DNA of 64,000 nt from Lolliginicoccus suaedae (lineage in GTDB: Bacteria > Actinomycetota > Actinomycetes > Mycobacteriales > Mycobacteriaceae), in assembly GCF_008312885.1 (NCBI RefSeq), contig NZ_VSSO01000002.1, positions 1 through 64,000 of the forward strand, read 5' to 3'. The position numbers and the translations under genes were made by a program. Positions 3,603 to 39,429 of this stretch are shown here, piece by piece. The notes beneath the pieces are model-generated. The model worked only from the letters and a program-made list of their open reading frames with translations. It did no database searches and had not been told where the DNA came from. Within the stretch, counting starts at the first letter, position 1; the number at the start of each line of letters is the position of its first letter.

Positions 3603-4976
3603 CTATCCGTTGTGCCCGCGTGCCATGACGAGCTGGGCGGTGAGCACGACCTTCGCGGCCTTCTCGGCGTCCACGGTGGTGACCTCCCCGTTCTCGACAA
3701 TGACGCGCCCGTCGACGATCAGGCGCTCGAGCGGCGGCGCGACGCCCATGACGAGCGCGACCACGGGATCGTCGATGCCAGCGTGGGGCAGGGTGTCCAT
3801 GCGCCACAGCGCGAGGTCGGCGAGCTTGCCCTCCTCGATGGAACCGATGTCGTTGGCGCGACCAAGCAGGCGGGCTCCTCCTAGTGTCGCGAGCTCGAGC
3901 GCCTGGCGCGCGCTGAGCGCGGCGGCTCCGTCGCGGGCCCGGGCGAACAGCAGCGCGTGACGTGCTTCCTCGATGAGGGAGCCGCCCTCGTTGCTCGCCG
4001 CGCCATCGACGCCGAGGCCCACGGCCACCCCGGCGCGGACGAGGTCGCGGAGGCGTGCGATTCCTGCTCCGAGGCGGGCGTTGGAGGTGGGACAGTGCGC
4101 GACCCCGGTGCGGGTGTCGGCGAGCTGGACGATCTCGCGGTCCTCGAGGTGCACGGCGTGGGCGAACCAGACATCGGGGCCGGTCCAGCCAAGCCCGGCG
4201 ACATACTCGAGGGGGGTGCCGCCGAGGTTCTGCCGGCAGAACGCGACCTCCTCGCGGGTCTCGGCGAGGTGGGTGTGCAGGCGCGCGCCGTAGTCGCGGG
4301 CGAGGGCGGCGGTCTCGCGCATGAGGTCGGCGCTGGCGGAGAACGGGGAGCAGGGCGCGAGCCCGATGCGCAGCATCGATCCGGGCGAAGCGTCATGCCA
4401 TTCCGTCAGTGCTTTCTCGCTGGCGGCGAGGATGTCGCGGAGCGGCTCGACGAGCGAGTCGGGGGGCAGCCCGCCCTGGGACCGGCCGAGGTCCATGGAG
4501 CCGCGAGTGGGGTGGAAGCGCATGCCGATCGCGGCGGCGGCGGTGATCTCGCTGCCGAGCATGTCGGCGCGGGCACCCTTGTCGCCGGTGGGCGGGAAGA
4601 CGTAGTGGTGGTCGGTGGTGGTGGTGCAGCCGGTGGCGGCGAGCCTGACGAGGGACGCGATGGCCGCGGTGTAGGCGGTGTCGCGGGTGAGCTCTGACCA
4701 GCGGGGGTAGAGGGTGACGAGCCAGTGGAAGAGGTCGAGGTCGGCCGCGTGGCCGCGGGTTATCCATTGGTAGAGGTGGTGGTGGGTGTTGACGAGCCCC
4801 GGGGTGAGCAGGCAGCCGCGGCCGTCGATGATGGTGGCGCGCTCGGGCAGGTCGGCGGGCTCGTCGCCCACGGCGGTGATGCGGTTGCCCTCGATGACGA
4901 CGCTGCCGGTGAGCTCGCGCCGCTGCCCGTCCATGGTGACGATGCGAGCGTTGCGAATTACTTTGGTCACCGACAT
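3603..4976 (-). CDS. 8-oxoguanine deaminase-like amidohydrolase
   Basis: A 457-residue zinc amidohydrolase of the ATZ/TRZ/8-oxoguanine deaminase group, which turns 8-oxoguanine or a related purine into the oxo product (urate from 8-oxoguanine). Visible metal ligands: GLVNTHHHLYQ (His-x-His), HTHLAET, FAHAVHLED, and VDGAASNEGG near the C-terminus. It leads the leftward operon with the xanthine dehydrogenase FAD and molybdenum subunits and is divergent from guanine deaminase. Both context and length fit a purine deaminase. Exact substrate is inferred; cytosine or triazine deaminases share the fold but are less likely here. Confidence 0.8.
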   Translation of the reverse strand: MSVTKVIRNARIVTMDGQRRELTGSVVIEGNRITAVGDEPADLPERATIIDGRGCLLTPGLVNTHHHLYQWITRGHAADLDLFHWLVTLYPRWSELTRDTAYTAAIASLVRLAATGCTTTTDHHYVFPPTGDKGARADMLGSEITAAAAIGMRFHPTRGSMDLGRSQGGLPPDSLVEPLRDILAASEKALTEWHDASPGSMLRIGLAPCSPFSASADLMRETAALARDYGARLHTHLAETREEVAFCRQNLGGTPLEYVAGLGWTGPDVWFAHAVHLEDREIVQLADTRTGVAHCPTSNARLGAGIARLRDLVRAGVAVGLGVDGAASNEGGSLIEEARHALLFARARDGAAALSARQALELATLGGARLLGRANDIGSIEEGKLADLALWRMDTLPHAGIDDPVVALVMGVAPPLERLIVDGRVIVENGEVTTVDAEKAAKVVLTAQLVMARGHNG

Positions 4977-19221: not shown

Positions 19222-19420
19222 CACCGTGAATGCGCTGCTAGGGTCGAGGCGTCGTGGTGGACGGGAAGCCGGTGCAAGACCGGCGCGGCCCTCGCCACTG
19301 TGATCGGGTAGCACGCGATCGTTCTCCAGCAATCCAGCCGGGGAGCCACTGGGGCATCGAGCCCTGGGAAGGCAGATCGTGCTGCGTGACAACCCCGTCA
19401 GCCAGGAGACCGGCCACGAC
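19222..19420 (+). ncRNA. Cobalamin riboswitch
   Basis: A B12-sensing leader. It contains the core GGGAAGCCGGTGCAAGACC (from 19263), CGCCACTGTGA, the later GCCACTGGGG...CCTGGGAAGGC arm, and the B12 box AGCCAGGAGACCGGCC at 19400-19415. The binding-protein gene starts 47 bases after the box with its ribosome site AAGGCGG in between, so control is probably of translation initiation. The 5' boundary is approximate. Cobalamin binding should repress the transport operon that follows. Confidence 0.95.
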
Positions 19421-19461
19421 CAGCGATATCCGATTCCACGAGGACCTGGAAGGCGGTCACC

Positions 19462-34778: not shown

Positions 34779-34934
34779 GTCGCGCGCGCATCACGATCTG
34801 GTGATCGTTGGCTGGTTCACGGGACGGCAGCGGCGCGGATTGGTCACTGTGAGATACCCATCACTGGCAGGAGCGGCGGGCATCGCGTCCCGTAGCATTC
34901 CTGCCGGATACGACCACTCGTGCTTGGAGGCACC

Positions 34935-35090
34935 ATGAACTTTTCCATCTTCGATCTCTCGACCGTCGGCGAGGAGCAGCTCGGTGTTGCTCCGTCCGAG
35001 ATCTACGCCGCCATCTTCGACGGCCTGCTCGGTGCGGCTTCCTTCTTCCAGGACCTGCTTCCCGGAATCGTCAACATCCCCGGCGTCTGA
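34935..35090 (+). CDS. Short acidic amphipathic peptide, PorA/PorH-like
   Basis: A 51-residue peptide starting MNFSIFDLSTVGEEQL and ending LLPGIVNIPGV. GGAGG lies 4 bases before the ATG, and an exceptionally strong terminator begins 19 bases after the stop, so it looks like a highly expressed single gene. There is no signal peptide, Cys or Lys; it has six acidic residues and no basic one, with hydrophobic residues spaced as in an amphipathic helix. Size, charge and lack of a signal resemble the PorA/PorH channel peptides of the corynebacterial mycomembrane. No close family is recognised; a membrane-active peptide is an alternative. Confidence 0.65.
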   Translation: MNFSIFDLSTVGEEQLGVAPSEIYAAIFDGLLGAASFFQDLLPGIVNIPGV

Positions 35091-35108
35091 TAGCCAGCGG
35101 CACCATGC

Positions 35109-35146
35109 GATGTGGGCCCGGGAGCTTCGGCTCCCGGGCCCACATC
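35109..35146 (+). terminator. Strong terminator with UUCG loop
   Basis: A perfect 17-base-pair stem (GATGTGGGCCCGGGAGC and its inverse) closed by a TTCG tetraloop, 19 bases after the short-peptide stop. No U tract. It is symmetric, so it may also end leftward transcription. Confidence 0.9.
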
Positions 35147-35216: not shown

Positions 35217-35429
35217 TTACGGGCTCGGCTCGGGCAGGTCGCACTGCCCGACCTGTGGGTTGACGCCCGCATAGTTCAGCGGGCCCGCAACGACCGTGAT
35301 GGCGAGCGTGCTGATGCCCGCGCAATCCGGATTGGTGCTGCTGAAGTAGCCCCGCTGCCCCGCAGCGATGGCACCCACGATGAGCCAGATGATGACGAGC
35401 AGAGTGATGATGCCGCCAAGTCCTCGCAT
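35217..35429 (-). CDS. Small membrane-anchored protein
   Basis: Unrecognised 70-residue protein with one N-terminal membrane helix (GGIITLLVIIWLIVGAIAAGQ) and a ~45-residue outer part with two Cys (NPDCAGIS and QVGQCDLPEPSP) that could form a disulfide. GGGGAG lies 8 bases before the ATG at 35429. It follows the other small membrane gene after 18 bases, so both probably share the SigB/SigF-like promoter upstream. Confidence 0.7.
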   Translation of the reverse strand: MRGLGGIITLLVIIWLIVGAIAAGQRGYFSSTNPDCAGISTLAITVVAGPLNYAGVNPQVGQCDLPEPSP

Positions 35430-35678: not shown

Positions 35679-36404
35679 TCACATTCCGGCAGATGCTCGC
35701 TCGCGCAGCAGGACCAGTGCCCGGGAGAGCAGCCGGGATACGTGCATCTGGGATATTCCCAGGCAGCTAGCGATCTCGGACTGGGTGCGGTCCTCGAGGA
35801 ACCGCATGCCGACGATGACTTTCTCGCGCTCGGGCAGCGCGGCGATGAGCTCGCCCAGCGCGAGCCTCTGGTCGGCAGCCTGGTAGTCGATATCGTGATC
35901 GTTGACGAGATCCCCGAGATCGGTGTCGCGGTAGATGGTGCCCGCATGCATCGCCTCGGTGATGTCCTCCACGCTTGCTCCGGCCTTGGCCGCGATGTCC
36001 TGTGCTCGTGGCGTCCTGCCGAGCCCCTGCGCCAGAATGGGCATGTCCTGCGCGATGCGCGCGCGCAGCTCGTGGATGCGACGTGGCACTCGCACGAGGT
36101 CACGCTTGTCACGCAAGTGGTGCCGGATCTCGCCGACGATGGTCGGCACGGCGAACGGGATGAATCCTTTGTCGCGCGAGCAATCGAACCGGTCGATAGC
36201 CGTGATGAGGGCGAGCCGCGCTACCTGCAAAACATCATCGGGGTCCTCGCCGCGATACCGGAAGCGGCTCGCGATGTTGCGGGCAAGCCCGAGGCACCGG
36301 GTGATGATCTCCTCGCGCAGGTCCTCGGCAGCAGGATGACCGGGGGGCAGGGCCGCTCGCCTAGCGAGCAGCGCGTTCACGTGCTCGACCTCGTCGGGCT
36401 CCAT
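35679..36404 (-). CDS. RNA polymerase sigma factor, SigB/SigF type
   Basis: A 241-residue stress/sporulation sigma factor. Region 2 is LARNIASRFRYRGEDPDDVLQVARLALITAIDRFD, with GFIPFAVPTIVGEIRHHLRDK; region 3 is VPRRIHELRARIAQDM; and region 4 has LPEREKVIVGMRFLEDRTQSEIA then the helix-turn-helix GISQMHVSRLLSRAL. It follows the RsbW-like gene, the usual sigB operon order. The ATG at 36404 is used; a TTG at 36410 would overlap the upstream stop by 4 bases. Its own cluster carries matching promoter sequences. Confidence 0.92.
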   Translation of the reverse strand: MEPDEVEHVNALLARRAALPPGHPAAEDLREEIITRCLGLARNIASRFRYRGEDPDDVLQVARLALITAIDRFDCSRDKGFIPFAVPTIVGEIRHHLRDKRDLVRVPRRIHELRARIAQDMPILAQGLGRTPRAQDIAAKAGASVEDITEAMHAGTIYRDTDLGDLVNDHDIDYQAADQRLALGELIAALPEREKVIVGMRFLEDRTQSEIASCLGISQMHVSRLLSRALVLLRERASAGM

Positions 36405-36406
36405 GG

Positions 36407-36802
36407 TCAATCAGTATCGCGGCGGGACTGGAACCCCACCATGGCACGCGCTCCCTCGGTCCGGTACTCGAGCTCGCTCGTGACACTGGCCAGCACATGC
36501 CATCCGATGCTGTCCTGGTCGGGATGACGCACCTCGTCATGGTCCACGCTAGCGATGACGTGGACCTCGCCGGGCGCGAACTGGAACTCGCACAGCAGCT
36601 CCTTGTCGGGCAGCGCCACCGCTATCAGCTGCGTGCATGCCTCATCGACAGCGAGCCGGACCTCCTCGACGCTGGTGAGGTCGAGGTCAGCCCGCGCGGC
36701 CACGCTCGCGGCAACGAGCCGCCCCAGTGCCAAGTACTCCGCTCGCGCGGGCACGCTCAGCGCGATCGTGTCCGAAAGGCTGGTTCTCCTGCTGATACTC
36801 AC
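36407..36802 (-). CDS. RsbW-like anti-sigma factor (HATPase_c)
   Basis: A 131-residue serine-protein-kinase-type anti-sigma factor expected to bind the adjacent sigma factor and phosphorylate a STAS antagonist. The N-box is EVRLAVDEACTQLIA, with Gln where many kinases have Asn, which may weaken ATP or magnesium binding. Later parts of the fold are shorter than in RsbW of Bacillus. It starts at GTG 36802 with GGAGCAGGA directly upstream, and only 2 bases lie between its stop and the sigma ATG. Confidence 0.82.
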   Translation of the reverse strand: MSISRRTSLSDTIALSVPARAEYLALGRLVAASVAARADLDLTSVEEVRLAVDEACTQLIAVALPDKELLCEFQFAPGEVHVIASVDHDEVRHPDQDSIGWHVLASVTSELEYRTEGARAMVGFQSRRDTD

Positions 36803-38216: not shown

Positions 38217-38376
38217 GGGCTCGCGGGCCCTCGCGCCCCGGCCGGACGCGCACGACTCATAAGTCAATCCTCAGGCAAATCCCCGGTTACGGCTGTCCAA
38301 ATTGCCGTAGCCTGGAGGTGCTTTCCACGTAGGACCGAGCCCGCGCGTCCGGCAGTACCACGAGGGAGGATTGCCC

Positions 38377-39429
38377 GTGTCGCCACGCCTGCTTGGTCGC
38401 GTCCGGTCCACGATCTCGGCCGCTCGCGACCAGTTCCCCAGCCGGGCACGCATCGCGCGATCCGTGCTGCTCGCGGGCCTGGGCATGCGGAGCATGGGGT
38501 GGCCTTCCGCGGTGCCGGGCGAGCAGCACTGGTATGGCGTGGTCCGCACCTTCACCGCCGAGGAGCTCATCGACGGGCAGCCCCGCACCACCGCATGCGC
38601 CATCGCGGTGGTGTGCGATGGTGACTACTCGGCGTTCCATTTCTTCTCCCGCCCGCACGAGGGCACGAGCGGGCGGCGGCGCGAGGCAACTCTCGGCCTC
38701 GTCGGCGTCGATGCGTTCGAGTACCTGTACAAGATCGTGGAGGGGCACGAGCGCGACATCGTCGTGTACCTGCACCAGCCGCACCTGCGCGACCTGCTGC
38801 GCTCCGCCGCGCCCGCGTTCCCGCAGTGCACCATGCGCGAGAGCCTCGAGGATGAGCGGCTCGCCCGCCTCAATGGGATCGCTGGCACCCAGATCGATAT
38901 GCGGGTGCATCGCCAGCAGGCCCGCCTAGCGGGCATCCCCCGCAAGGAGCATGGACGGCTCATGATCGCCACCGACGCGTCCCTGCGCAGCCGGCATCGT
39001 GGCGCCGGCATCGCCTGCGTGAGCGAGGAAGGGATCGCCGAGTCGGCCTTCCGCGCCCATCTGGGCCGGATCGATGTCGCCGAGCTCGCCGCGATCGATC
39101 TCGCCCTCTCCACCTTCTGCGATGGCCGCGCGCTGCACATCCTCGTCGACAGCCGGCACGCGCTGAACTATCTGCAGGGCACCGGCAAGGTCCGCGACCG
39201 TGCGATCGCCTCGCTGGTGGACAGCATCCGCGGAAAGTCCCGCAGCCGGTCAGTGACGTTCGAATGGGTGCGCGCGCACAACGGCCAGCCGCTCAACGAG
39301 ACCGCGCACCGCCTCGCCGTGGCCGCGCGCAGGTGCCACACCAGCAATGTGCCCGCGGATACGCAACAGCGCATCGTGTCGGGGATCCTCGAGGACCTCA
39401 CCGCCAATAGTGTCGATCAGACCGTGTAG
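38377..39429 (+). CDS. Protein with C-terminal RNase HI-like domain
   Basis: A ~350-residue protein. Residues ~193-315 have the RNase H fold: Asp200 in MIATDASLRSRHRGAGIA, Glu236 in VAELAAIDLAL, Asp258 in HILVDSRHALNYLQ, and WVRAHNGQPLNETAHRLA. In the last, the flexible-loop His is kept (His301), but the fourth carboxylate aligns with His311. The first ~190 residues are an unrecognised domain. Start GTG 38377 has GAGGGAGGA upstream. Its last 13 bases overlap the convergent aminotransferase. A structure-specific nuclease is possible; loss of the fourth acid may reduce activity. Confidence 0.7.
   Translation: MSPRLLGRVRSTISAARDQFPSRARIARSVLLAGLGMRSMGWPSAVPGEQHWYGVVRTFTAEELIDGQPRTTACAIAVVCDGDYSAFHFFSRPHEGTSGRRREATLGLVGVDAFEYLYKIVEGHERDIVVYLHQPHLRDLLRSAAPAFPQCTMRESLEDERLARLNGIAGTQIDMRVHRQQARLAGIPRKEHGRLMIATDASLRSRHRGAGIACVSEEGIAESAFRAHLGRIDVAELAAIDLALSTFCDGRALHILVDSRHALNYLQGTGKVRDRAIASLVDSIRGKSRSRSVTFEWVRAHNGQPLNETAHRLAVAARRCHTSNVPADTQQRIVSGILEDLTANSVDQTV

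Follow-up and report, generated by a model that had tools for sequence, protein, structure and literature searches.

A 51-codon frame on the forward strand of Lolliginicoccus suaedae, at 34935..35090 of the window (the 64,000 nucleotides analysed, with which contig 2 of a 3.47 Mb genome begins), is, with virtually no room for doubt, a real gene. It encodes an acidic leaderless peptide of 51 aa, MNFSIFDLSTVGEEQLGVAPSEIYAAIFDGLLGAASFFQDLLPGIVNIPGV, marked by conservation, purifying selection and a shared motif. According to the sequence searches, its family is specific to the Lolliginicoccus-Hoyosella lineage, and has been found so far only there. By analogy and structure modelling, the peptide may be a small helical protein of the mycomembrane, new and confined to its lineage, that works as a homo-oligomeric channel, a reading we put forward tentatively, as something short of probable.

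Gene structure and flanking signals

The frame opens with an ATG at 34935 and closes with a TGA at 35088-35090 (+), and a ribosome-binding site, GGAGG, lies at 34926..34930 (+), 4 bases before the ATG. The product contains six acidic residues (D/E) and no K, R or H, has a pI of 4.05, and carries no Sec-type signal. The original prediction is confirmed in its sequence details, i.e., the ATG, the GGAGG at 4 bases, the 51 codons, the six acidic residues, and the lack of basic residues and of a leader. The same GGAGG precedes the main-locus copy in seven of seven species; in front of the two paralogues described below it was not observed. The copies encode 46-52 aa with a net charge of -5 to -6, and none of those at the main locus has a basic residue.

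Sequence comparison suggests a putative -10 element, TAGCAT (TANNNT), at 34893..34898 (+). It reads CCGTAGCAT at the corresponding positions of all four genus genomes, and its counterpart in the sister genus is CCGTAAACT in two genomes and ACGTAACAT in the third. No -35 match accompanies it, and no sigma-70 promoter was found by consensus upstream of the peptide gene. Farther upstream, the block TTGGTCACTGTGAGATACCCATCACT at 34840-34865 (+) is conserved in the genus, partly in genus mate G003, and TGTGATGCAGACCACA is found upstream of the main peptide gene in two sister-genus genomes. The conserved TGTGA block is possibly a Crp-type site, with a spacing that differs between the genera.

Past the stop codon, a 17-bp hairpin with a TTCG loop occupies 35109..35146 (+), where 35109-35125 pairs perfectly with 35130-35146. 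Its fold is -49.2 kcal/mol with z -7.6, and no shuffled sequence folded as well. The hairpin announced by the original prediction is therefore present, while its description as a terminator comes from its position, given that no T run follows the stem and that a simple terminator scan of it gave no match. Terminators without a T run are common in actinobacteria, and the hairpin is probably a terminator shared by the convergent genes. Hairpins of unrelated sequence stand at the same place after the stop in G003 and in the sister genus (loci L006, L061 and L062), hence the layout is kept and the letters are not.

Distribution and selection

The gene is present in four of four genomes of the genus, and the relatives' copies are 73-92% identical; Lolliginicoccus levis and L. 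lacisalsi are among the publicly available genus mates. A profile of the four genus sequences (A2), searched against 401 genomes of the GTDB family, had matches in three genomes, all from a single further genus (g24), with E-values of 1e-13 to 3e-16, and two of these genomes hold a second copy elsewhere. We take this sister genus to be Hoyosella. In all three of its genomes drawn, the peptide gene lies beside the same convergent neighbours as in Lolliginicoccus. Core-genome analysis nests Lolliginicoccus inside Hoyosella (PMC12451644).

A nine-sequence profile (A3), built from the alignment of all main-locus copies plus the paralogues, recovered the same nine sequences at E <= 1.4e-22. Nothing else fell below E 0.003 in the 401 family genomes, where the remaining matches lay inside long frames, and an order-wide sample of 299 genomes yielded no further members, both genome samples being partial. 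Searches of Pfam, NCBIfam, PHROGs, PDB sequences and PDB folds returned no significant match to the peptide. The original prediction was to be abandoned if a small-ORF search in relatives met no conservation; conservation was what the search found.

Across seven species, dN/dS values of 0.02-0.39 indicate purifying selection. Codon differences are mostly at third positions; the most similar pair of g24 genomes, for example, shows a 1/0/15 distribution over the three codon positions. When the window was simulated 60 times with a Markov model, no ORF of 40-65 codons with no K/R/H and at least five acidic residues arose, whereas the real window holds a single one; 400 kb sampled from this genome contain one other such ORF with a ribosome-binding site. 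A chance ORF in a structured non-coding transcript might be suspected from the strong hairpin downstream. Against it stand the codon-position pattern and the dN/dS values, a protein motif that persists at 35-51% identity in diverged DNA, and the existence of paralogues at other loci, so this explanation is most improbable. With synteny conserved in seven species in addition, the small gene proposed from the window alone stands.

Peptide anatomy

The best-conserved segment of the A3 alignment is the N-terminal motif [FIL]D[LF]STxGxxQLG, in which D7, S9, T10, G12, Q15, L16 and G17 are invariant in nine of nine sequences. In the window, this core corresponds to residues 5-17, IFDLSTVGEEQLG, at 34947..34985 (+). 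By analogy with mycoloylated peptides, the invariant S9 and T10 are candidate O-mycoloylation residues, a modification for which no strict consensus exists (PMC11066868).

A long amphipathic helix is predicted for residues 20-46 (34992..35072, +) by AlphaFold2, hydrophobic moment and helical wheel. From the single sequence, AlphaFold2 placed helices at residues 8-16 and 20-46 with a pLDDT of 76 overall and of 80-89 across most of the long helix; with three sequences, the same layout was obtained at lower confidence. On the helical wheel, E22, D29, S36, D40 and N47 fall between 160 and 200 degrees, forming a polar strip whose last member, N47, lies just past the predicted helix end.

The hydrophobic moment of the 51-aa peptide is 0.352 against a shuffle mean of 0.129 (p 0.001), and three genus sequences reach 0.34-0.35 against 0.13 (p 0.001-0.003). 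The moment is lower, 0.22-0.25 with p of about 0.05, in G003 and the main g24 copies, and is not significant in the sister-genus paralogues (p 0.33-0.39). The 19-residue hydrophobicity maximum of 1.2-1.7 is near the transmembrane range.

Gene neighbourhood and paralogues

Facing the peptide gene on the reverse strand are its constant convergent neighbour, encoding a 70-aa membrane protein with no Pfam family (35217..35429), and a second constant neighbour, encoding a DUF6131 membrane protein (PF19626; 35448..35603). These are followed on the same strand by two genes, one for a SigF-type sigma factor (35679..36410) and one for an RsbW-like anti-sigma factor, a kinase (36407-36802). Beyond RsbW come a STAS protein and then a GAF-ANTAR protein on the other strand, an order conserved in both genera. 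The upstream neighbour is a DJ-1/PfpI gene in three genus genomes and a lytic transglycosylase gene in G003. The original prediction had placed the peptide in a stress cluster: the SigF, RsbW and STAS neighbours are indeed there, but nothing shows that the peptide gene is part of their cluster, and its layout is that of a separate convergent unit.

The 70-aa protein is found in 112 of 251 family genomes and in 18 of 31 genera. It occurs in multiple copies in some genomes, and its C-terminal part, PLNYAGVNPQVGQC, recurs in relatives. Diverged copies of the peptide were sought beside it in other genera, and none was present in the loci read. Given that the 70-aa protein is widespread, with no adjacent peptide in those other-genus loci, the peptide is a lineage-specific gene in an older block.

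An inner-membrane or cytoplasmic peptide, e.g., a regulator or partner of the 70-aa protein, DUF6131 or SigF/RsbW, would fit a block that is conserved with its neighbour genes in both genera and a hydrophobicity close to the transmembrane range; a moderately hydrophobic helix of 27 residues would suit such a peptide too. Yet the gene is convergent and by layout separately transcribed; its 70-aa neighbour is encoded in 18 of 31 genera while the peptide is absent from the other-genus loci read; its paralogues are found at other sites, next to PRiA4_ORF3 and CHAP-domain genes; and the peptide lacks the positive charges that would orient a helix in the inner membrane. We thus regard this alternative as unlikely, though one to be taken seriously. 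A secreted or intercellular peptide, either a signal or a leaderless bacteriocin, would likewise be small, amphipathic and leaderless, with its own transcription unit as the layout suggests. This is very unlikely, since an adjacent immunity or transporter gene is absent, the peptide is strongly acidic rather than cationic, and purifying selection on it is strong.

The second copies in g24 adjoin a PRiA4_ORF3 gene and a convergent gene for a membrane-anchored CHAP-domain protein. These paralogues, at about 4785-4931 (-) of locus L063 and about 4512-4658 (+) of locus L064, encode 49 aa (MPPFSVLDFSTLGEDQLG...) with one Arg and a helix less amphipathic than that of the main-locus copy.

A second acidic ORF without K/R/H lies outside the window, at 277890-278063 (-) of contig C1 of genome G000 (L150:17890-18063). 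It encodes 57 aa, MPEFIAQILAGSLGGTALGLGGLALGIAGAVGGPQLLEAILPLITDLDPGMLDTLLP, with AGGGAG before the ATG and a strong hairpin plus a T-rich tail just past the stop. Its layout is that of the 51-aa peptide gene, while its sequence is unrelated and matches no family, and in the stretches read no counterpart was found by synteny in G003. It is possibly a partner or a second envelope peptide. Elsewhere in the window, at a distance from the peptide gene, a cobalamin riboswitch is located at 19238-19432 (+; Rfam RF00174, 84 bits), and the Rfam scan of the window returned nothing else. The frame at 38371-39429 (+) encodes a 352-aa protein conserved in the genus, with a C-terminal RNase H domain and an N-terminal half that has no Pfam match.

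Comparison with PorA, PorH and ProtX

The likeness to PorA and PorH that the original prediction had noted holds for size and charge, for the missing leader and for the predicted amphipathic helix, and does not hold for homology: hhalign gave probabilities of 4.4% for PorH and 0.1% for PorA. In control comparisons, split PorH, split PorA and sub-groups of the peptide family each found one another at 97.8-99.5%. The PorH query had PorH-like matches in 15 Corynebacterium genomes, with PorA beside most, and its identity is supported by a 75%-identical match that has an adjacent PorA. PorA and PorH also fail to detect each other (0.3%), which means that the functional class is not delimited by homology alone. 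Considering in addition that ProtX has no homology to either, the failure excludes membership and not the same working mode. In terms of sequence, the peptide is not a PorA or PorH member; it resembles both in kind.

Location gives the same picture of membership. The PorA/PorH genes are marked by their place between groEL2 and ppk2 (PMC5944148), whereas the peptide gene lies beside the SigF block. Around seven groEL genes of three clade genomes, up to 1.5 kb away, no credible PorA/PorH-like acidic ORF was found; the sole frame, of 34 codons with three basic residues and three Cys, was judged spurious. The same scan recovered porA and porH in a Corynebacterium locus.

As in the PorA/PorH class, whose members are short (about 37-68 aa), acidic and without signal peptide, the peptide is predicted to form an amphipathic helix with a charged strip, which is weaker in the sister genus. 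In comparison with PorA, including the homo-oligomeric PorA of C. jeikeium and C. urealyticum, lengths are 46-52 aa in the peptide family vs 41-48, GRAVY values 0.61-0.95 vs 0.30-0.83, and the peptide's pI 4.05 vs 4.05-4.87. PorA and the peptide are thus both acidic and leaderless, of about 40-50 residues and with GRAVY near 0.8, have their own ribosome-binding site and a mycolate-containing host, and place the amphipathic helix after a stretch in which one Ser is invariant (LSSTG in PorA, LSTxG in the peptide). The peptide differs in having no Trp, another locus and an isolated gene with no adjacent PorH. Like PorH, it is small, acidic and leaderless, with a predicted amphipathic helix, but it has neither the Ser-rich hydrophilic tail nor the FxTFGKNIG core, and forms no operon with PorA. 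A precedent exists in homo-oligomeric channels built from leaderless peptides of 37 and 40 aa (PMC5944148), and an AlphaFold model of the PorA-PorH pore has been published (PMC12632848).

ProtX of C. glutamicum (cg2875) is similar by description, being very small, leaderless and predicted helical, and belonging to no known family. It has 38 aa, is mycoloylated, and shows no homology to PorA/PorH (PMC5310785); it is linked to the cell wall (PMC12632848) and required for phage Cog adsorption (PMC9671496). Mycoloylation is demonstrated for ProtX, whereas S9 and T10 are candidates only. On these precedents, the peptide could instead be a mycoloylated surface peptide, structural and non-conducting, anchored in the mycomembrane or the wall. 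The N-terminal Ser-Thr segment, better conserved than the helix, and the weaker amphipathic helix of the paralogues point this way, while the regular acidic strip suggests that the main-locus helix turns one side to water from end to end, and the absence of MspA leaves room for a channel role. We consider this surface role fairly improbable, yet it is the main rival within the envelope to a homo-oligomeric channel, which by analogy would be the likeliest function.

Mycolate host and absence of MspA

The PorA/PorH class is associated with a mycolic acid outer membrane and mycoloyltransferases, and the host has the genes for both. Its mycolate/arabinogalactan cluster includes GlfT2, AftB-like, mycoloyltransferase-type, FadD32, Pks13 and AccD4-type carboxylase genes, and its genome holds six strong esterase-family mycoloyltransferase candidates, one with LGFP repeats. 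Hoyosella is reported to make mycolic acids, early reports of their absence having been corrected (PMC5936774).

Two main channel classes have been described in mycolate bacteria, MspA and PorA/PorH (PMC9233653, PMC5944148). MspA porins (PF09203) were found in none of the seven genomes of the two genera, and in 14 of 19 other family genera by the same search, which serves as positive control. As MspA is common elsewhere in the family, the clade would need another channel, as Corynebacterium does. The peptide, a possible functional counterpart as an outer-membrane channel of mycolate bacteria, has no PF09203 or other Pfam match and differs plainly: MspA-type proteins have about 200 residues and a Sec signal (PMC9233653), vs 51 leaderless residues. 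Five other MspA-free family genera also have no peptide, hence the correlation between MspA absence and the peptide is weak. With mycolate genes in the host and no MspA in the clade, a mycomembrane channel is nevertheless plausible. A clade without MspA but with a peptide resembling PorA/PorH is suggestive of a mycomembrane role and not proof of it.

Proposed function and significance

By analogy, an envelope (mycomembrane) location is modestly favoured, and channel function is a possibility to be held with more reserve. The channel reading has against it the lack of homology to any protein of known function and the sister-genus second copies with no significant helical moment. Under a homo-oligomeric channel model, a short N-terminal helix is predicted to start at the invariant Ser-Thr and to be followed by the 27-residue helix with its hydrophobic faces. 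The peptide would be exported by the same leaderless route as PorA, PorH and ProtX, be O-mycoloylated, with S9 or T10 as the best candidates, and settle in the mycomembrane. Several copies might then bundle, their acidic strips lining a cation-preferring, water-filled pore that would fill the place taken elsewhere by MspA porins or PorA/PorH.

Extending the analogy, homo-oligomeric bundles of these leaderless acidic peptides of about 50 residues could stand in for MspA and PorA/PorH in the Hoyosella lineage, as a third kind of mycomembrane channel with an origin of its own and, among small helical channels of this type, the first outside Corynebacterium; this we consider rather doubtful. Corynebacterium supplies the worked examples of leaderless peptides, 40-60 residues long, that get across the plasma membrane and assemble pores in the mycomembrane. 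If the channel reading is true, an unrelated second set in an MspA-free lineage would mean that small-peptide pores arose more than once. It would also offer a comparative handle on the export route of leaderless peptides, and point to a gene class overlooked in other MspA-free mycolate bacteria.
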